64,000 bases of DNA. It comes from Pilatotrama ljubarskyi. Lineage: Eukaryota; Basidiomycota; Agaricomycetes; Polyporales; Polyporaceae. Below, in pieces: positions 46,965-56,615 of this stretch. The notes beneath the pieces are model-generated. The model was not told where the DNA came from and did not search any database. It was given only the letters and a program-made list of their open reading frames with translations. The stretch's first letter is position 1. Each line of letters opens with the position of its first letter. The DNA lies in assembly GCA_022385805.1 (NCBI GenBank), contig MU277676.1, positions 508,890 through 572,889 of the forward strand. Reading direction: 5' to 3'. The position numbers were made by a program, and so were the translations under genes.

Positions 46965-47160
46965 TGCTAAGGGAACGACACGACGCGCACTTCCCGATGT
47001 GTTACTATGGCGCTGCGATGGCGACTGTTGAAGTACTGTACAATTCCATCGGCCACAGCGTGCGTCGAGGATAATGGCCCGTTATGGTACTAGCGCTTAT
47101 TCGTAGATTACATAAGCTACCGACCGCCCTCCTTCGTTTTTCCCTTTCGTCGCTCCTCAG
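46965..47160. other. 3' flank of A2, leading to an LTR-like leader
   Basis: No gene. The last 40 bases are pyrimidine-rich, ending CTCCTCAG before the repeat described next. Confidence 0.35.
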
Positions 47161-47367
47161 CTCTTGCCACATCCTGTGCCCGCGAGACTGAGGTATGCAT
47201 CCCTTTTATTCGTTCTAGATCTCGTACAAATGGCTGACATTACTGCAGACTTTTCCTACTCGATCTAGGTACAGAATATATAGCTCTTGCCACATCCTGT
47301 GCCCGCGAGACTGAGACTTTTCCTACTCGATCTAGGAACTCGCGGCGCTCTCGTATAACCTCCGAAA
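47026..47367 (+). mobile_element. Candidate LTR-like remnant
   Basis: A TG start (TGTTGAAGTAC) is preceded by GCGAC (47021-47025), and GCGAC recurs at 47368-47372, suggesting a 5-bp target duplication. The interior carries the leader repeat at 47161-47335 that matches the LTR architecture found elsewhere in this window. The right end reads CCGAAA and not CA, so the border is uncertain. Confidence 0.35.
47161..47335 (+). repeat. Tandem unspliced then spliced copy of a two-exon leader
   Basis: Exon A (47161-47192), a 56-nt GTATGC...GCTGACATTACTGCAG intron (47193-47248), exon B (47249-47268), a 15-base spacer GTACAGAATATATAG, then exon A (47284-47315) joined exactly to exon B (47316-47335) without the intron. 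Confidence 0.9.
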
Positions 47368-47372
47368 GCGAC

Positions 47373-48364
47373 CGGGGTGGAGATCGAGTTCTGCTTGTAC
47401 TAGTAGCTTCAATACTCAATATGACTACGTGAACCTCTCGCCAGGTCAGCCTTGATGTTTGAACGGCGGCCTTTAGAATGTCGTCTTTCAGTATGGAGAC
47501 TTCGTGTGGAGACTTCATAGCGATGCGGCACGGGGTTCGGGAGTCGGTTCTTCCATGCGAGCCATCCTGATTGAATGGAGTGGTACCCGAACAGCACTAT
47601 GATGGGCTGTGCCAGTGGTTGTCCGTACACAGCAGTGGGGAAGAACGAAAACAGATATTGACTACGATGCACACTTTCTCGGGCAAGGACCAAGATTGAG
47701 AAAAGCGCGAAAGAGCGCGGAATGCGTGTGACTTGAGCAGAGGGTCCGAGCCTTCCCCGGAAAGGGGGATTGCAACTTGATGAGCTCACGGTGGCACGCC
47801 GGGGACTCACGCTCACGACTACACTTCATGTTCATAGAATGTTGATACAAGATCCCCAAACAGAGGGGGCAGCGCATCTGTGTTGTGACGCCGGTATGCT
47901 GAGGCGAGGATGAAAGGCAGACGCGGTCACGTGTGTACGCGTCGTGCTCTCATGCAACCAAATCCCTACCCACACGCGTTGGGACCTTAGGCGGCCCGAC
48001 GTACTGCACTCCTTTTTTGGGTGCACAATAGAAGAGGCGGAAGGAAATGACTGAGTAAGAACTGTAAGCATACTAGTACATACGCCGCACCACGAGACGG
48101 CGGCTCTGGTTTCGGCGAGCGAGCTGTGGCCCGGCGTAGCCTCTCAGTGTGCGCATGTAGGGTGATTCACATTTTCCCAATCATGAGACAACGAGCAATA
48201 TGACCTGCCTCTATGTATATGTGTACTCACAGACAGTAAGTCCGCAGACCACAGTTGTCTTGCGAGTCCACCAGAACATCCGCGTCTGAGTTACCGGACA
48301 GGATAACGTTTGGCGGCTCTGGTGCCACGGCCGCGTTGATTACCACGGCAGTCTCGATGAACGG
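47373..48364. other. No gene seen
   Basis: About 1 kb of single-copy-looking DNA with short minus-strand ORFs; none recognised. Confidence 0.4.
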
Positions 48365-48369
48365 CTCTG
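48365..48369. repeat. Target-site duplication (CTCTG), 3' side of copia
   Basis: CTCTG directly abuts TGTTAGATC, and the same five bases follow the opposite LTR end at 56616-56620. Confidence 0.9.
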
Positions 48370-48694
48370 TGTTAGATCCTGGATGCCTGTCAGACGAAGC
48401 TCAGATGGATGTGAACCAACTGTATNNNNNNNNNNNNNNNNNNNNNNNNNNNNNNNNNNNNNNNNNNNNNNNNNNNNNNNNNNNNNNNNNNNNNNNNNNN
48501 NNNNNNNNNNNNNNNNNNNNNNNNNNNNNNNNNNNNNNNNNNNNNNNNNNNNNNNNNNNNNNNNNNNNNNNNNNNNNNNNNNNNNNNNNNNNNNNNNNNN
48601 NNNNNNNNNNNNNNNNNNNNNNNNNNNNNNNNNNNNNNNNGTCTATGCCCTCGTGCGTTGTACCGAGTAGTACCCGAGATAACGGACTCGAACA
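48370..48694 (-). repeat. 3' LTR of the copia element (contains an assembly gap)
   Basis: Begins TGTTAGATC and ends CTCGAACA on the plus strand, matching the 5' LTR at both ends; the middle is unsequenced. Confidence 0.88.
48426..48640. other. Assembly gap (215 N)
   Basis: A run of N inside the 3' LTR, over the region that in the 5' LTR holds the tandem leader repeat. Confidence 0.99.
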
Positions 48695-48703
48695 CTCCTC
48701 CTC
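48695..48703 (-). promoter_or_regulatory. Polypurine tract for plus-strand priming
   Basis: GAGGAGGAG on the element strand, immediately 5' of the 3' LTR, where LTR elements prime plus-strand DNA. Confidence 0.7.
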
Positions 48704-48898
48704 GACGAGGAGATCAACGCAGGGACGAAGGAGCGAACTATTGTAAGGAGCGTGTGCGTATGGGTAGGATGCGACAGACGTGGCATGAGCGTGAATGGAA
48801 AAGGGAGCACGAAATAGGCATGAGAGCGAAAACAGGAAGCAACGAGACAGGAAACTCCTCCTCGACGGCGAGACCACGCGAGAACTCCTCCTGGCGCG

Positions 48899-49668
48899 CT
48901 AGCGCAGACCGAGGCATCCGCGGAATATGCTGAACTTCGGCCCGGGAAGGGGCTTGGTGAAGATGTCGGCGACGTTGTCGTCAGTCGGGAGCCAGTGGAC
49001 GTGGAGTTGGTCGGTGGAGACGTAGTCCCGAATGATGTGGTACTTAATGTCGATGTGTTTAGTCTTCGAGTGGTGGGTCAGGTCGCCCGTGAGTGAGATC
49101 GCGCTGTTGTTGTCCACTGCTAGCGGAGTGGGACGGGATTGGGCATGGCCGATGGACACCAGGACACTGCGCAGCCAGACAGCCTCCTTGGATGCTTCGG
49201 AGGCGGCGACATACTCAGCTTCGGTGGTGGAGTCGGAAGCGCCGCCCTGCTTACAGGCAGCCCAAGAAACCATGCCAGATCCGAGCGAGAAGCAGTAACC
49301 GCCGATGGAGCGGCGCGAGTCGACACAACGAGCGTGATTAGAATCCGTGTAGCCAAGCAGGAAGGCGGGTCGTGAGCCACCAAGATGGAGGGCAAGAGTC
49401 CGAGTGCCTTTCAAGTAGCGTACAACGCGCTTTGCTGCCTCCCAGTGCGCGCGGCCGTAACAGTCGAGAAACTGAGAAAGTTGTTGGACGGCGAAGGCGA
49501 TGTCTGGGCGGGAGCCGACAGCGATGTAGTTGAGACTCCCGACGAGTGCGCAGTAAGGCCATGATTGGGCGGCGAGCTTCTCGTCATCGGTCTTGGGGGA
49601 ATGCTCCTTGCGGGAGAGATTGACGTCTGTCTCCATCGGGGTGACGACTGGATGGGCGTCGGCGAGGC
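48899..49668 (-). pseudogene. Copia RT C-terminus and RNase H fragment
   Basis: From the nested LTR border the frame reads GLADAHPVVTPMETDVNLS, then the copia hallmarks YCALVGSLNYIAVGSRPDIAFAVQQLS, WEAAKRVVRYLKGT and the RNase H block GYTDSNHARCVDSRRSIGGY, SDSTTEAEYVAASEA, KHIDIKYHIIRDYV and NVADIFTKPLP. It ends at the native stop at 48899. RNase H removes the RNA strand during reverse transcription. The fragment is open but cut off from the rest of pol by the LTR at 49674-50229. Confidence 0.88.
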
Positions 49669-49673
49669 CGAAC

Positions 49674-50229
49674 TGATGAACTCTGAACCTGGAAGGCTGT
49701 AAGCCGCACAACAAGAGGTCTTCAGTCTGTGAGAGAACGACTATGATTGCATAGTACTGTACCTGTAAGCCGCACAACAAGAGGCTACAAGTACTAGTAA
49801 GTAACATGTAAGGAAGGCATAAGTAATGAGGGACTTACTCTTCAGTCTGTGAGAGAACGACTGAAGAGCAGAGGCCTGCAGAGTCCTCCTTATATACTAC
49901 AGTAGGAGGACGATGAGTAAGCATAAAGAAGAGAGCATGTGACGTCCAGAGGACGCTGACTGAGCGATGAGTAAGGGAGCATAATCGACTATGAGTCAAA
50001 GAGTCCTAGGCTGAGTAATGCTACCTGTCCAGACATGTCTAGAATAGTCTGGAGCATCGCAGAACGTACCAGAAACCATATGGAGGGATGGCAGAATGCC
50101 GAGTAAGTACAGAACAAAAGAATGTACGTATATGGTAGGTAGGAAAGTCCATGCCTGCGTATGGTAGACGCGAGGCCACTAGCACTGCCACTCCCGGTCC
50201 GGCACAGCCGTCAACACGGAAGTTCAACA
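49674..50229 (-). mobile_element. Nested solo LTR 2 (556 bp)
   Basis: Starts TGATGAACTC and ends AGTTCAACA on the plus strand, with perfect CGAAC duplications at 49669-49673 and 50230-50234. The LTR is on the minus strand: a TATA box (GTATATAAGG, about 49890-49899) precedes the leader repeat. Confidence 0.9.
49697..49860 (-). repeat. Tandem unspliced/spliced leader in solo LTR 2
   Basis: Minus strand order: exon A (49860-49839), 54-nt intron GTAAGT...TTGTAG (49838-49785), exon B (49784-49763), 22-base spacer GTACAG...CATAG (49762-49741), exon A (49740-49719) fused exactly to exon B (49718-49697). Confidence 0.92.
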
Positions 50230-50234
50230 CGAAC

Positions 50235-50297
50235 TGGGACACGACGCGGTCGATGAGGGCCGTCTGGGAGATGCGCGCGGTGCGGGAGTCGCGGTCG
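50235..50297 (-). pseudogene. Short copia RT segment between two nested LTRs
   Basis: DRDSRTARISQTALIDRVVSQ on the minus strand is the RT stretch that normally follows the FCIGISIER block and precedes FGLADAHPV; it is stranded between solo LTRs 1 and 2. Confidence 0.8.
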
Positions 50298-50302
50298 TGT
50301 TC

Positions 50303-51055
50303 TGTCGTGGAGGCCCGGGGACACGGGACGACAGCAGAACCGACCCGCTTACAGGGGTGGCGCTGGCCCATGCCGGGTCCGTGCAGGGACGGCGACGGGG
50401 AGGTGAGTGAGGAGGGAGAGGAGGGCTTACAGGGCAGAGGCACCCTTAGCCACCCCCAACAGAGGTCTGGGGGCGCAACAGGGGCATGCCGGGGAACTTG
50501 CCTCAAAGAGGCCAAGGAGGAGGCCGGCGCTGGAGGCCAAAGCTGTCCCCAATGACTTAAGTATATTGACTTGTGAAGCTAGTACAAGATGCGCTTACCT
50601 GTCCCCAATGACTTAAGAGGTCGAGATGGGAAACAGGTGCAAAGTCTACCCTACTTATATACTGTAGCTAGTGCGCACAGACCAGGTGCCTGTTTGTACG
50701 TGTTTGGCACCAGAGGTAAGTATGAAGCATGTTACCAATGACCATGTGACCTATAGCTAGACAAATACCTATGACGTCCTTCAGGGCTGCTATGGTAATC
50801 GTAATGACTGTAAATGACGTAGGGTCGTGACATGAGGCGTATGACGAAGGTCCGGTGATACCGGAGGGCAGGGCGCTGGTATGGGCGCTTAGAAGAGGTG
50901 GACTGGGGGTGTGATGGGGAGAGGGCGCCGTGTAGGGCGCCTAAGGAGGTGAGGGAGGCGGATGCTGAGGTGCCAGGGTGTGCCGCTGTGTCAGGGGTAG
51001 GATCTGGAGGGCGTAGGCGGAGCCTTGGAGGGGAGGCGCTGGTGCCTCCACGACA
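50303..51055 (-). mobile_element. Nested solo LTR 1 (753 bp)
   Basis: Ends form a 12-base perfect inverted repeat (TGTCGTGGAGGC / GCCTCCACGACA). Flanks are TGTTC (50298-50302) and CGTTC (51056-51060), a 5-bp duplication with one CpG-type C to T change. TG...CA ends with a 5-bp duplication favour an LTR over a DNA transposon. A minus-strand TATA box (GTATATAAGT, about 50654-50663) agrees. Confidence 0.78.
50543..50617 (-). repeat. Partial unspliced/spliced leader in solo LTR 1
   Basis: A 19-base unit ending GGGGACAG (50617-50599) is followed by a donor-like GTAAGC and 37 bases. The same unit then returns (50561-50543), joined to CTTTGGCC. Splicing the first copy at GTAAGC to the second ACAG would recreate the second copy's junction. 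Confidence 0.75.
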
Positions 51056-51060
51056 CGTTC

Positions 51061-52224
51061 GATGGAGATCCCAATGCAGAATCGAGCTTCGCCTAGGTCC
51101 GAGATAGTCCAAGCACGGCGAAGATCAGCCTTGAAGCGGTCGCCAGCAGCGGGAGAACTCGCGATCATGAGGAAATTGTCGACATGGACGCCAGTGATCA
51201 CTGTGCCCTCGGCGGTAGTCCGGTGATACAGACAGTACTCACTGGGGACGCGTTCGAAGCCGACGGAGACCAAGTGCTCGTGCATTGTGCGATTCCAGGT
51301 GCAACCGCCTTGAGGCATGCCGTACAGACCCTTGCGCAGCTCCCAGACCCAGTCCTCGCGGCCCGGAACCTCAAAGCCTCGGGGCTGCTCCATGTAGCAG
51401 ATCTCGTTGGCAGGCAGAGCACCGTAGAGAAAAGCGGTTTTGACGTCAATCTGCAAGAGGAGCCAGCCCAGCGCAGCAGCTAAGTGAACGAGGACGCGGA
51501 AGGACTCGAGATGCATGGTCGGAGACATCGTAGAGTAGTAGTCCTGGCCCCAGACGGCCTCATATCCCTTACAGACCCAGCGTGCTTTGAAACGAACCGG
51601 GTTGCCGTGCTCGTCGCGTTTAAGGCGAAAGACCAGCTTTCCGTGCATGACTCAGCGAGTGCCAGGGACAGAGCTGCGTGGGATGAGGTTGTAGACGTTG
51701 AGATCCTTGATGGAAGCAAACTCCTCCTCCAGAGCCTTGCGCCAGTCAGTGGCAAAGGGGCTGGCAAGAGCGTCTTTCAGGGAGGTGGGATCGCCGTCGT
51801 AACAGCTGTTGAGTTGAAGAGTGGCCGCCAGAGCAAGGTCGAGATCCGTCCAGTTAGCCAGATCACTCTCAATGCGCTCCTCCTGGTGCTCGATGCGTGC
51901 AGCGGCAACACGGGCAGCGCTGGCGCGACAGTCGGCAATGGCGCGCTCGAGCGCGGACACCCAGGGAAGATCGTCGGCGAGAGCGCGACGTTCGGTGGGT
52001 TGCCGAGTGCGCGCGGAGGTGCGAGGGCCAGGGGCAGCAGGGGAGGGAGGGACGTCAGCCACAGACAACACGGTCACATGATCGTGCACAGGCGCGACGG
52101 GAGCGGCAGGCACCGGCGCGGGAACGAAGGACGCGACGGGACTCGCGGCGGGAAGGAGGGAAGGTGGAGGTGGCGGCGCGGTGTGTAGAACAGTAGGGGT
52201 AAAAGGGGGATCAGCAGGCCACAT
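51061..52224 (-). pseudogene. Copia reverse transcriptase fragment, damaged
   Basis: On the minus strand: a Pro/Ala linker, DLPWVSALERAIAD, WRKALEEEFASI, then TGA at about 51658-51660 where Arg is expected. It resumes with MHGKLVFRLKRDEHGNP, FKARWVCKGYEAVWGQDY, LLLQIDVKTAFLYG, GLYGMPQGG and EARFCIGISIE. The polymerase active-site motif reads VHVDNFLM, with the second catalytic Asp of VDD replaced by Asn. Both the stop and this change abolish activity. Confidence 0.88.
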
Positions 52225-54717
52225 CAGGAATCACGTCGGGGTCCAGGGGGATCATATGGACGCACGTGGCTGGATGGAGAGATGGAGACAACCCCCCATC
52301 ATATGGAGACGCCCGGCCTCCATCACGCTGTAGATGTTGCTTTCCCACGCCCTTCCCGGACGACGCACTCCTCGCGCTCTCCCCGATTTGCTTCAAAATT
52401 TTTACAAGCGGGCTTGGGCTGAGCCAAGGTGCATGTATAGGTACTTTCCGGAGCAGTACGTGAGTGGACGTCAACGAGATGGAGAACGAGTCTCCAGATG
52501 GAGGCACCCGGAGCCATGGATCCGGCGTCTCCGTCTGGAGGTTTCGGCGTTTCCTGATGCAGGGGACGACAAGGTCGTCGGAGGGCACCGAGATAGAAGA
52601 AGATGTAGAGGGGGGAGAAGGGACGGAGGTAATGGAAGGGACAGCAGGAGTAGGAGGCGCGGCGGACGACTCGTGGGATTCAATAAAAGAGACATGGAAG
52701 GAAGCGATGACACGGTGAGTGGGGGGGTGGTAACAACAATAGGTCTTAGAATTGGAACCGTAACCGATAAGAATGCATTCGAGAGAGCGAGCGCGAAGTT
52801 TCGGATTGTGGGTGTTAATATGTACGAAGGCGCGGGAACCGATTTCCCGAAGGTGACGCAGGGAGGGAGGTGTACCGAACCAAGCTTCGTAAGGGGTAAT
52901 ACCACGAGGGAGAGAAGAGGACAGAGTACGGTTAGAGAGGTAGCACGCGGTGACGTAGAACTCGTCCCAGCGGTTCTCCGGAACGTTGGAGGCGAGGCGC
53001 ATGGCGCGGGACTTCCCAAGGTACGTGCGATGCGCGTGTTCGACTTTTCCGTTATGAGCGGAAGTGTACGGCGCAGTGAGCTCGAAGTGAATCCCAAGCT
53101 CTGCGCAGACGGCGACGATTTCGTTGGTCTTGCACTCGCCGTTGTCGGTGACAACGCGCCGGATGGGGCAGCCCTCAGCACGACGCGCAATGAGGAAGGA
53201 GCGAAGTTGCACCGAGCAGGCGTCCTTGGACGAAACCGGGAAGGACCAGCCGTACGAGGAGAAATCATCGATAATGTCCAGCGAGCAGATGTTGCCGCTG
53301 GCGGAACGAGTACACTGATCACCGGTCGCGTCTATGAAGAACACCCCTCCGCGCTCTGAGCTCCTAACCCCCTCCCTGACCTTAGGCACAGGCGAGCGAG
53401 TCTGCTTGCCCATGATGCAATGGTCACATTTTGGCGGGAGGACGGAGAGATTAACAGGCGTACCGGAGGTGCGGACCTGAGAGGCGACGGTGTGCGTCGC
53501 GCGGTAGTTCGCGTGGCCGAGGCGGCGGTGCCACGTCTCGAGAGTGGGGACCGCAGAGACGGCGAGCGCAGACGCAACAGTAGGAGGCGCACCAGAGAGC
53601 GAGTACAAGCCACGACCGACGCGGGAGCCAGTGAAGAAGGCAGCACCACTGCGGTGACGGAGGGTCACACCAGAGGCAGTGAAACCGACAGTGTACCCGT
53701 GAGGGCCGTTGCACAGTGCACGGACCGAGATGAGACGCACAGAGGCAGCGGGGACATAGAGTGCATGGTCGAGAACGAGGTGCTTGCCGCGACCCAGGGA
53801 GAGGCGAATCTTCCCGATGCCAGTGGCGTAGATCACGCTGCCGTTAACGCCGCGGATGCCGCGGGGAGGGATAGAGACGAGCTCGGCGAAGTCAGAGCGC
53901 ACGGGGCTGATGTGGGTGGAGGCGCCAGAGTCGAAGAGGAAAGGGTCGACGGAGGCGGTACCAGCAGAGTAAGCGACGTCCCAGACAGCGGAGGCACAGA
54001 GAGGACCAGTCACAGCGAGATATGCCTCGTACGCAGTGTCGCCGTGAGCATCCAGCGCAGATAGCCACTCAACAGGGATGGCGTCGGAGGGGAGCGGAGC
54101 GGGAGAGTCATCAAGGACCTCGACAATAGACGCCGCAGAGTGAGCGGCCTCAGGAGCAGTGGCGGCAGCGGGAGCGACGGCGGACAAGTAGTAGGCCTTG
54201 CCCGAAGCATCGAAGAGCTTCTTGGGCGCGCCGGGGGGAGGCGCAGAGGAGCCGGGGCGACCGGCGCGACGGGCAGCGATGCGCGCCTCGACTTCGGCAC
54301 GGCGGTTCTCCATGGCGCCGCCGGGCTGGAAACAATCGGCGGTGACATGACCATTGCGCTTACAGTTGCTGCAGTGCTTCGGAGTGCGTGCGCCAGGGCG
54401 ATGGGGCTGGGCGGACATGGCGACATCGGTGCTGAGACCGGAGGACGTCTTGCCGTCATCGCGAAGGGCCTGCTCGAGCTCAATGCGCTTGATGATATCA
54501 GCGACAGCGTATGGGACGGTGGTGGTCGCGCGAGAGAGCGAGTCAGCAACAGTGCGTTGTAGCTCGGGAAGGGAATCGCGCATCATGTGCAGAAGAGCGA
54601 CCTTGCCGAGGGATTCGTCGTCGAGGGGGCCCATAGCGATAATCTGGCGACACACGGTGACACACTGGTGAGCCTGAGGAACAAGAGCCTTCGCGCCGTC
54701 GAAGCGGAGCTTAAGCA
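52211..54717 (-). pseudogene. Copia gag C-terminus, protease and integrase
   Basis: The minus-strand frame continues gag after solo LTR 3 (LLKLRFDGAKALVP), then the zinc knuckle CSNCKRNGHVTADC. The protease active site is FLFDSGASTHISP (about 53.93 kb), and the pre-integrase zinc region is WHRRLGHANYRA...CDHCIMGKQT. The integrase core is FFIDATGD, VTDNGEC and HNGKVEHAHRT, supplying D, D and E. It ends at 52211 out of frame with the RT part, so a frame change near 52.2-52.5 kb separates integrase from RT. Confidence 0.9.
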
Positions 54718-54722
54718 GATCG
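54718..54722. repeat. Target duplication GATCG of solo LTR 3 (left)
   Basis: GATCG abuts the LTR start TGTTAGGGACG and is repeated at 55636-55640. Confidence 0.9.
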
Positions 54723-54749
54723 TGTTAGGGACGTGCTGAGCTGAAGTCC

Positions 54750-54875
54750 GAAAACCCGAAAAACGCGGGGGTTATTCGCGAAACACCGAAAATGCGGTGG
54801 TTAACCGCCAAGCCCTGAAAACGCGGGGGTTATCGGAGCTAAACCCCGAAAATGCGGGGGTTAACTCCGGCGGTA
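54750..54875. repeat. Degenerate short-repeat block in solo LTR 3
   Basis: About five units of the form CCGAAAATGCGGGGGTTA with variable spacers; related to the block at 55320-55605. Confidence 0.7.
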
Positions 54876-55319
54876 CATAGGTCCGGAGTTCGGGATTTCG
54901 GGGGTAGTTCGAGAAGCAAGACAACTCAGTGAAGGGAGGACTTTGGCGAGGCTATTGGCAACGCCCTGGGACCTGATCCGTTGTCCTCTATTTCAGAAGT
55001 CCGGGGCATAGGCCCCGGGACTTAGAGCAATGCTGGTCGGAGGTCCGGGGGCTCGGGGGTACGGAAGTTCGGGGGTTGACAAGTAGATGGATTGGGGAAG
55101 TGTAGCGAGAGTGTAACAAGGATGTAAAGGAGGATGTAACGAGATATTCGAGCTGAGTAACTACAATGGCCCAGCTCAGTATATATAGTAAGTAAGCCTA
55201 TTGTGAATGAAGACAATAAGAGGCATACGGAAAGGGAGTTCCGAAGGTGAAGACAATAGAGCTATTGTATGGGAATATCAAATAGGGATGGCGCAATCTG
55301 AAACATGTGCAACAAGGAA

Positions 55320-55605
55320 GGATTCCGGGGGTTCGGGGGTTCGGAGGTAAGTCCCGGAAATGCGGAGGTAAGTCCCGGAAAACGCGGTGGTTGAAGTACC
55401 GGAAAACGCGGTGGTTAAGTATCAGAAAAGCGGAGGTTAAGTAGTGGAAAACGCGGTGGTTGAATACCGGAAAATGCGGTAGTTAAGTACCGGAAAATGT
55501 GGGGGTTAAGCCCCGGAAAAAGCGGTAGTTAAATACCGGAAAAAGCGGGAGTTAAGTCCCGGAAAAGCGGAGGTTAAAATACCGAAAAATGCGGAGGTAA
55601 AGTGA
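55320..55605. repeat. Minisatellite of about 18-24 bp units in solo LTR 3
   Basis: About a dozen variants of GGAAAACGCGGTGGTTAAGT in tandem, with changes at fixed positions (CGGTGG, CGGAGG, CGGTAG, TGGGGG). Confidence 0.8.
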
Positions 55606-55640
55606 AGTGAAGAGATAGTCGCACGGGTCGTAACAGATCG

Positions 55641-56158
55641 CGAAGAAGAAGAACCTGGGCATGAGGCCTGCGATTGAGGTGGCGATCGTGAAGGAAGACC
55701 CAGAGAGCGGACACGGAAGTGATCGCAGAGATATGCTCGCGCTCGTTGTCAGAGCATTGGAGACGGATGAAGGAAAGGACGTGGTGGTTGTTCTGGGTCC
55801 ACGCCCGGGCACTTTTAGTGCGAGTGGCGCGATCGGGGCAGACGGAACCGGCGTCGAGGTACTCCTCGAGATCACCGCAGACGGACAGGATGTCACGGAC
55901 GCGGCGAGCCCACGGGCGATAGTTGCCCAGCGTGAGGTCGAGGAGGTCGTCGGCGGCGAACTTGCTGAGGAGGTTCGCGGGGATCTGCGACTTGGTGATC
56001 GGGTCGGGATCGAGATCGGCCACAGCGGCGCCGGCGGGAGCAGACGCCGGTGCCGTGGGGAAGGAGCCTGGGGTCCCCGTGGGGGTGGCGCCCGGCGAAC
56101 GAACCGAAGAACCCATGGCGTCAGCCAGATTGTACGAGGCGTCGCCTCCAGGTGACAT
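55641..56158 (-). pseudogene. Copia gag N-terminus, cut by solo LTR 3
   Basis: ATG 56158 opens MSPGGDASYNLADAMGSS and continues through LTLGNYRPWARRVRDIL, WTQNNHHVLSFIRLQC and SALWVFLHDRHLNRR to the insertion point. The frame on both sides of the LTR plus duplication is the same, so gag was open before the insertion. Confidence 0.85.
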
Positions 56159-56344
56159 GTTGAAAATGTGAAGGGAGAAGAAAACGAACCGTCCGCCGAC
56201 GGGGGAGAGCATCGAGAGCGACGGCAAGAGGGAGATGGGCGGGGCAACAAATGCAGGGAAACGCGGAAAGGCACAAGTCTGTGGGTGCGGGGTTCACGGC
56301 GTCTTGGCGAGCAGGGTGTTTGATCTCCGGGGATCAAACCAAAA

Positions 56345-56355
56345 GGCTCATAACC
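56345..56355 (-). promoter_or_regulatory. Primer-binding site matching the anticodon arm of initiator tRNA-Met
   Basis: GGTTATGAGCC directly follows the 5' LTR on the element strand. Its complement GGCTCATAACC is the anticodon stem-loop of fungal initiator tRNA-Met (anticodon CAT), the half-tRNA type of priming known from Drosophila copia. Confidence 0.75.
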
Positions 56356-56615
56356 TGTTAGATCCTGGATGCCTGTCAGACGAAGCTCAAATGGATGTGA
56401 ACCAACTGTATATATGTACCTGGATGCCTGTCAGACGAAGCTACCGAGGTACATGAGTATGGACGAGGATGAGGGGAACGCGGGGGGGAGGAGACATACC
56501 TCAGATGGATGTGAACCAACTGAGGTATGCGGAAGGAGAGAGGGGAGCTATATATATGGGTGTCTATGCCCTCGTGCGTTGTACCGAGTAGTACCCGAGA
56601 TAACGGACTCGAACA
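56356..56615 (-). repeat. 5' LTR of the copia element (260 bp, complete)
   Basis: Minus strand: TGTTCGAG start, TATATATA box (about 56548-56557), start region CCTCAG about 29 bases later, tandem leader repeat, and GATCTAACA end. Confidence 0.92.
56365..56519 (-). repeat. Tandem unspliced/spliced leader in the copia LTR
   Basis: Minus strand: exon A TTGGTTCACATCCATCTGAG (56519-56500), 59-nt intron GTATGT...CGGTAG (56499-56441), 21-nt exon B (56440-56420), 14-base spacer GTACATATATACAG (56419-56406), exon A with one change (56405-56386) fused to exon B (56385-56365), then the LTR end. Confidence 0.93.

Follow-up and report, generated by a model that had tools for sequence, protein, structure and literature searches.

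The window analysed here, a 64,000-nucleotide stretch of contig MU277676.1 of the polypore Pilatotrama ljubarskyi (assembly GCA_022385805.1, positions 508,890 to 572,889 of the forward strand), contains a Copia-type retrotransposon whose long terminal repeats (LTRs) carry an intron-bearing copy of a leader sequence next to an intron-free copy of the same leader. The element occupies positions 48370–56615 of the window on the minus strand, as delimited by its LTR ends, by the 5-bp target-site duplication CAGAG on each side and by domain matches. Its protein domains follow the order of Copia, with an integrase region ahead of RVT_2; the gag_pre-integrs, Pol_BBD and SH3_retrovirus models score above their cut-offs, and the RVT_2 match, at 151.5 bits, lies downstream of these integrase-side domains. 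Two further models fall below threshold (rve, 31.1 bits with a cut-off of 32.6; gag, 21 bits with a cut-off of 27). The integrase-side protein shares 64% identity with a protein of Trametes cinnabarina and 69% with one of T. pubescens, and comparison of the pol protein with viral contigs gave no match. The primer binding site (GGTTATGAGCCT, 56344–56355, minus strand) resembles the complement of the anticodon arm of the tRNA-Met genes of this genome. By its domain order, LTR pair, target-site duplication and predicted primer site, the element is a Copia LTR retrotransposon.

Three loci in the window have the same order when read along the RNA strand: exon A1, a GT..AG intron, exon B1, a spacer that begins with GT, and then A2 joined directly to B2. 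In the 5′ LTR of the Copia element (56356–56615, minus strand), which runs U3, A1, intron 1, B1, spacer, A2, B2 and a tail of 9 nucleotides (nt), A1 is at 56500–56521, intron 1 (59 nt, GTATGT...GGTAG) at 56441–56499, B1 at 56420–56440, followed by a second donor-like site (AG/GTACAT), the spacer at 56408–56419, A2 at 56386–56407 and B2 at 56365–56385. In the 3′ LTR (48370–48694, minus strand) A2B2 is readable at 48379–48421, the first copy being hidden in a 215-base run of N (48426–48640). The second locus is a solo LTR of another family, LTR2, situated between the reverse transcriptase and RNase H parts of the Copia element; on the minus strand it has A1 at 49839–49862, a 54-nt intron 1 at 49785–49838, B1 at 49763–49784, the spacer at 49743–49762, A2 at 49719–49742 and B2 at 49697–49718. 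The third, which we call the 47161 locus, is on the plus strand, with A1 at 47159–47192, a 56-nt intron 1 at 47193–47248, B1 at 47249–47268, the spacer at 47269–47281, A2 at 47282–47315 and B2 at 47316–47335.

At all three loci A2–B2 is the splice product of A1 and B1; the sole mismatch, a single base, is in the A2 of the Copia 5′ LTR, and A2 of the 3′ LTR (48400–48421) does not have it. At the 47161 locus the unit is perfect, with 54 of 54 nt alike between the copies. The unit departs from the standard U3-R-U5 organisation of an LTR in that intron-bearing and intron-free copies stand side by side. A preliminary description of this DNA had reported the same order at 56365–56519, 49697–49860 and 47161–47335, where we indeed find it; the spacer lengths given there (14, 15 and 22 nt) become 12, 13 and 20 nt on recounting, with AG assigned to the start of A2 instead of to the spacer.

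The window was scanned for this geometry with a main threshold of a score of at least 12 in each half. The 16 rows returned comprise the three units and 13 rows within an array at about 55342–55603, which were dismissed as an ordinary tandem repeat. None of ten Markov shuffles of the window gave a match at this threshold, one chance match appeared in three of the ten at a looser score of 10, and a scan of the loci that required GT..AG found nothing in 211,047 shuffled bases. Matches at L018 and L039, seen at the loosest threshold, look like chance and were set aside. The array at 55342–55603 consists of 23-nt units (TAAGTACCGGAAAACGCGGTGGT) and adjoins the gag frame of the Copia element; a second array in the window, of 29-nt units, is found at 54752–54863.

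A TATA sequence, which the preliminary description had placed about 30 bases upstream in the two window LTRs, begins 31–35 nt 5′ of A1 in both, and it begins 29–35 nt 5′ of A1 in eight of 13 families. The first bases of copy 2 are AG. From this boundary and the spacing of the upstream TATA, copy 2 begins where the RNA should begin, and we infer that it starts at the predicted RNA start. The 47161 locus is less readily placed: no TATA is present at −30, no primer site was seen, and a genome search for relatives matched only the query itself. It is either a single-copy LTR or another thing with the same layout.

A search of the 33.1 Mb genome (173 contigs), with the two LTRs, the RNase H part, the primer site and the donor hairpin described below as queries and with scanning of the fetched loci, found the unit at 35 or more places in 13 sequence families, mostly Copia-type LTRs; this number is a lower bound, as the search scores best candidates only. 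Five related families (those of the window element, C18, C29, C51 and C166/C28) account for nine places, LTR2 and its window relative, two families, for 19, and C69 for two, with one each for C58, C22, C10, C25 and the 47161 locus. In the C18, C29 and C51 elements the unit is present in each of the two LTRs, which are 99–100% alike within a pair. The proposal in the preliminary description that the layout is kept or rebuilt in several families is supported. Its view of the LTR sequences as unrelated goes too far: the families differ strongly but share a CTCAG/CTTCAG...CTGA core and an overall plan.

The count of 35 excludes LTR2 pieces at contig ends or beside runs of N (L056, L057, L059, L062, L063, L066 and other partial matches), the C22 5′ LTR, which is cut by a contig end, and L103. 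It includes L055, in which B has decayed and which was counted by the main scan and the recount and missed by the stricter GT..AG scan. L104 is outside the representative comparisons and the folding and is included in the 13-family count of Watson-Crick pairs given below; L087 duplicates the C166 family and is not among the 12 representatives. Several contigs and runs of N in the assembly break at unit-bearing repeats.

The unit is not a general property of LTRs with this primer site. The primer-site pattern has 38 matches in the genome, of which 29 were fetched and nine were in loci from earlier searches. The fetched matches are six tRNA-Met genes (identified with ARAGORN), 12 LTRs of a family termed LTR3, six other LTR-like places without the unit, three that look like chance and two with the unit; the remaining nine are five with the unit, two LTR3, one LTR with A-B only and one (C22) cut by a contig end. 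Thus 14 LTR3-type and six other LTR-like places share the primer site and lack the unit. Nor was the unit seen in two Copia relatives, C1 and C6, the 5′ LTR of the latter being partly N. LTR3 members (for example L076, L089 and L098) have a donor-like CACAG/GTAAGC between the RNA start and the primer site, perhaps a different splicing arrangement. A search with the hairpin pattern gave 24 places (34 rows, ten places being matched on both strands), against one for the reversed pattern; 15 have the unit, seven do not, and two (C10:486909 and C44) have hairpin and intron and no copy 2. The C44 locus, L103 (G000:C44:39249-39286), shows a 14-bp inverted repeat over a donor, together with a short exon B and an intron-like stretch of 57 nt whose last bases are TGTACCATAG; no second copy was found within its 801 bases, and it is a candidate LTR only.

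Comparison of the two copies within each unit is informative as to when copy 2 was made. Among 12 family representatives A1B1 and A2B2 show four differences in 537 nt, and among the five related families B is 52–80% and intron 1 59–74% identical. Since the copies are nearly identical although the families have diverged, copy 2 appears to have been rewritten from spliced copy 1 at, or shortly before, transposition; a copy made once and then left alone would have diverged. In L104 the copies differ at one base in A and one in B. Eleven of 19 LTR2 copies have no difference between copy 1 and copy 2 in A or B, and in L049 an identical B variant is found in both. In L047, intron 1 ends AAG/A where the others have TAG/, and copy 2 gains one A at the joint, which supports the view that copy 2 follows the shifted acceptor as a splice product would. 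The central suggestion of the preliminary description, that copy 2 is a reverse-transcribed spliced leader lying beside an unspliced copy, finds support in the removal of an intron at a GT..AG joint in 13 families, in the AG at the start of copy 2 together with the TATA 5′ of A1 in eight of these, in the near identity of the copies and in L047. In some LTR2 copies the end of B is duplicated exactly at the B2/tail border (L044, L046 and L053, +CTTACAG; L051 and L059, +TGCGGCTTACAG).

Two features absent from the preliminary description, an apparent second intron and a hairpin over the first donor, would extend its model. Spacer, A2 and B2 together have the appearance of a second intron, at 56365–56419 in the Copia 5′ LTR (55 nt, GT...CAG, minus strand), 49697–49762 in LTR2 (66 nt, minus strand) and 47269–47335 at the 47161 locus (67 nt, plus strand). 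GT follows B1 and AG closes B2 in all 12 representatives, and the putative intron measures 54–67 nt, as compared with 52–59 nt for intron 1. All 12 have a CTRA at a distance of 11–25 nt from its end. The five related families all have CTGAC 11–14 nt before this end (11 nt in the Copia 5′ LTR), despite the divergence of B; this motif has no evident job in B1, and in B2 it sits at the expected position of a branch site. In C69 the LTR ends CTATA, and the border between LTR and primer site supplies the AG for the second acceptor, which is accordingly present at the 5′ LTR (CTATAGGTTATGAGCCC) but absent from the 3′ LTR (CTATACCTGG). If both introns are spliced, the leader becomes A-B-tail-primer site, and its minus-strand strong-stop DNA would lie without a gap on A2B2 of the 3′ LTR. 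Two other splicing schemes were rejected: the spacer alone is too short beside intron 1, and its removal would leave ABAB, and splicing onto an acceptor that closes A2 fails in LTR2 and C22, where A does not end in AG. Most of the spacers are rich in A and U and contain AATA- or TATATA-like words. These may represent a poly(A) signal, which removal of intron 2 would take from the 5′ leader.

All 13 families have, just 5′ of A1, bases that are able to pair with donor 1 and the adjoining end of A1. In the Copia 5′ LTR the upstream arm (CATACCTCAG, 56520–56529, minus strand), which is mostly 5′ of the predicted RNA start, faces CTGAG/GTATG at 56495–56504, that is, CATACCTCAG...CTGAGGTATG; the corresponding hairpin is CTCTTCAGTC...GACTGAAGAG in LTR2 (49838–49868, minus strand) and ACGGTGCTTCAG...CTGAAGCACCGT in C22. 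In the families compared the two arms covary. In 12 families the mean energy of own arms is −20.2 kcal/mol, as against −14.0 for swapped arms (0 of 20000 permutations as good), and in 13 families Watson-Crick pairs number 95 of 130 at k2-11 (reached by 11 of 20000 permutations) and 62 of 78 at k4-9 (2 of 20000), permutation figures that are optimistic, the families being related. The bases 5′ of A2 pair weakly and without preference for their own family (6914 of 20000). With most of the upstream arm outside the predicted transcript, formation of the hairpin would require RNA that extends through U3, which is the case at the 3′ LTR. In local folding donor 1 is unpaired at 0.66 when the RNA begins at its predicted start and at 0.20 when 14 nt of U3 are present. 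Donor 2 is unpaired at 0.19 before the removal of intron 1 and at 0.47 after it, a modelled change that offers a suggestion of ordered splicing, intron 1 and then intron 2.

The architecture and how widely it occurs, the close match between the copies, the covariation of the hairpin arms and the primer site are all plain in the DNA; from them we infer the start and end of the RNA, both splicing events and a landing step, which would fit together as follows. Transcription would start at the first base of A1, leaving donor 1 free at the RNA 5′ end, where intron 1 and then intron 2 would be removed to give A1-B1-tail-primer site. The minus-strand strong-stop DNA of this spliced leader would be tail′-B′-A′. 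The LTR sequence at the RNA 3′ end would remain unspliced, because there the U3 bases 5′ of A1 would pair with donor 1. The strong-stop DNA would have no continuous match to A1-intron-B1 and a continuous one to A2B2, on which it would land, to be extended through spacer, B1, intron, A1 and U3. The new LTR would then read U3-A1-intron-B1-spacer-A-B-tail, its A2B2 freshly copied from spliced A1B1. We consider it probable that these are Copia LTRs whose R/U5 combines two leader introns with a site on which the spliced leader can land. The fuller reading, of a self-restoring intron-bearing LTR in which two introns are spliced from the 5′ leader only, are kept at the 3′ end by a hairpin that depends on the start site, and leave a spliced-leader complementary DNA (cDNA) as a landing site rewritten during transposition, is put forward tentatively, the balance for and against it being close. 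Possible by-products that the scheme allows are single-unit and expanded LTRs: A-B only at C21:209460 and at C87:92998 (there followed by the primer site), A-intron-B only at C26:339386 and C10:486909, and one C69 LTR with two unspliced units and a spliced copy, whose partner has one unit.

Several observations weigh against this scheme, in addition to the kinship of the families. Recombination between direct repeats could also yield the by-product LTRs, and the C69 LTR pair differs by one unit, where standard reverse transcription makes both LTRs of an element alike. Eight of the 19 LTR2 copies show some difference between copy 1 and copy 2, and L043 and L050 share a B1 base that is not in their B2; for these two, U3-A1-intron-B1 from the parent 3′ LTR combined with A2B2 from the 5′ LTR, unspliced RNA, or recurrent mutation are possible explanations. 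The AG that ends B2 is not independent of the AG/GT at B1, since B2 copies B1; the CTGA that ends A is not independent evidence of a branch site, because the hairpin also needs it; and donor 2, mostly GTAC, is a poor fit to the usual fungal donor. The own donor is the best partner of the upstream arm in only four of 12 families. When 14 nt of spacer replace those of U3 in local folding, donor 1 is unpaired at 0.39, and when the entire leader is folded at equilibrium donor 1 does not distinguish the 5′ end from the 3′ end (mean unpaired 0.20 as compared with 0.15, and 0.22 with shuffled U3). The end of intron 1 can pair with donor 2, but with little specificity for the family (478 of 20000 permutations; a control pairing of the A2/B2 joint with the end of B2 scored 344 of 20000), and this pairing is weak in C22, the 47161 locus and L075. 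The control and the spacer folding lessen the support for ordered splicing and for the hairpin step.

Direct repeats that lie side by side favour template slippage, and the likeness of the copies could be explained without a second intron if only intron 1 were spliced, strong-stop DNA were made from A1B1-spacer-A2B2-tail, and slippage of reverse transcriptase between the adjacent AB repeats, with occasional landing on A2B2, kept the copies alike by expansion and contraction. The weak donor at B1 agrees with this. Such slippage predicts A-intron-B-spacer-AB-spacer-AB arrays, however, and none of the 35 places shows a further A in the 150 nt (in L075, 57 nt) that follow B2; the sole expanded LTR, in C69, instead repeats the unspliced unit, and neither the GT..AG length of 54–67 nt nor the CTGAC in B is explained. 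We regard this explanation as unlikely. It is very unlikely, in our view, that copy 2 was made once from spliced cDNA in an ancient event and has been kept like copy 1 by gene conversion or unequal recombination at the DNA level. Direct repeats of about 45 nt can recombine, and forms with one unit deleted exist, but conversion would need to match A and B and yet skip the intron; moreover, copy pairs are near perfect in families whose B is only 52–80% identical, the C18, C29 and C51 LTR pairs are 99–100% alike with the unit in each, and the change in L047 is that of a splice product.

Hardly any weight can be given to a chance tandem duplication with an unrelated indel, or to an assembly artefact that fused spliced and unspliced versions of an LTR. 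The breaks of contigs and N runs at these repeats might point that way; the same geometry, with GT..AG at the joint, nevertheless recurs in 13 families, the shuffles gave no match at the main threshold or in the GT..AG scan, the spacers are distinct in each family, and the unit is in both LTRs of C18, C29 and C51. On these sequence comparisons a chance origin of the architecture is refuted, and a duplication confined to the window copies, which the preliminary description had named as grounds for rejecting its own model, is excluded. A separate question is whether the donor hairpin acts as a splice switch. It could be left over from self-primed snap-back of the strong-stop DNA, or serve as a protein site where the RNA starts, either of which is compatible with copy 2 as a refreshed splice product. 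A strong-stop 3′ end that had folded back on CTGAG would be extended from the point at which the upstream arm begins, and masking of the donor is not seen in whole-leader folding. The pairs differ between families, on the other hand, and yet form through diverged U3 and donor sequences, and the passages on RNA folding in a foamy virus study describe a donor region in 3′ LTR RNA whose fold changes with U3 bases (PMC3694450). We think a relic or protein site somewhat unlikely.

Copia (Ty1/copia) elements such as Drosophila copia and Ty5 are primed by a fragment of the initiator tRNA-Met. The window element resembles them in its integrase-side domains ahead of RVT_2, its tRNA-Met-type primer site and its 5-bp end duplication, and differs in that R/U5 holds two intron-like segments and an intron-free leader copy. 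Drosophila TART, in its perfect non-terminal repeats, retains within the element a second, identical copy of a terminal piece; TART is a non-LTR telomeric element and splicing is not involved. The closest precedent for the donor hairpin, by analogy, is the donor switch of foamy virus, in which, according to the passages concerned, the splice donor region refolds in 3′ LTR RNA, with bases −13 to −1 extending the first stem; its authors propose that the 3′ LTR fold blocks the U1 small nuclear ribonucleoprotein, and the switch controls the choice of poly(A) site (PMC3694450). The likeness lies in a donor near the RNA start with a predicted fold that differs between the 5′ end and the 3′ LTR RNA, whereas a second intron and a spliced leader copy are not mentioned for foamy virus in those passages (PMC3694450). 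BARE is a Copia element with distinct RNA pools, proposed to separate the roles of its RNA, and the relevant parts of that account describe no intron or spliced leader copy in its LTR (PMC3735527). The relevant passages of PMC2923131 and PMC5542766 concern vectors. Searches of the open-licence PMC literature brought up no LTR in which a spliced copy of the leader is kept.

Introns are lost when spliced RNA is reverse-transcribed. Those described here lie within the LTR portion for which the RNA 5′ end is the template, and they persist in 13 diverged families. If the proposed scheme is correct, the spliced copy is a built-in record of the splicing of the element and of its first strand transfer, readable from genome sequence. 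U3 bases may also control a splice donor in these LTRs, independently of the foamy viruses, in which this is described. Under the proposed scheme the LTRs would represent a new solution to the problem of how reverse-transcribing elements keep spliceosomal introns, and would make that question directly testable.

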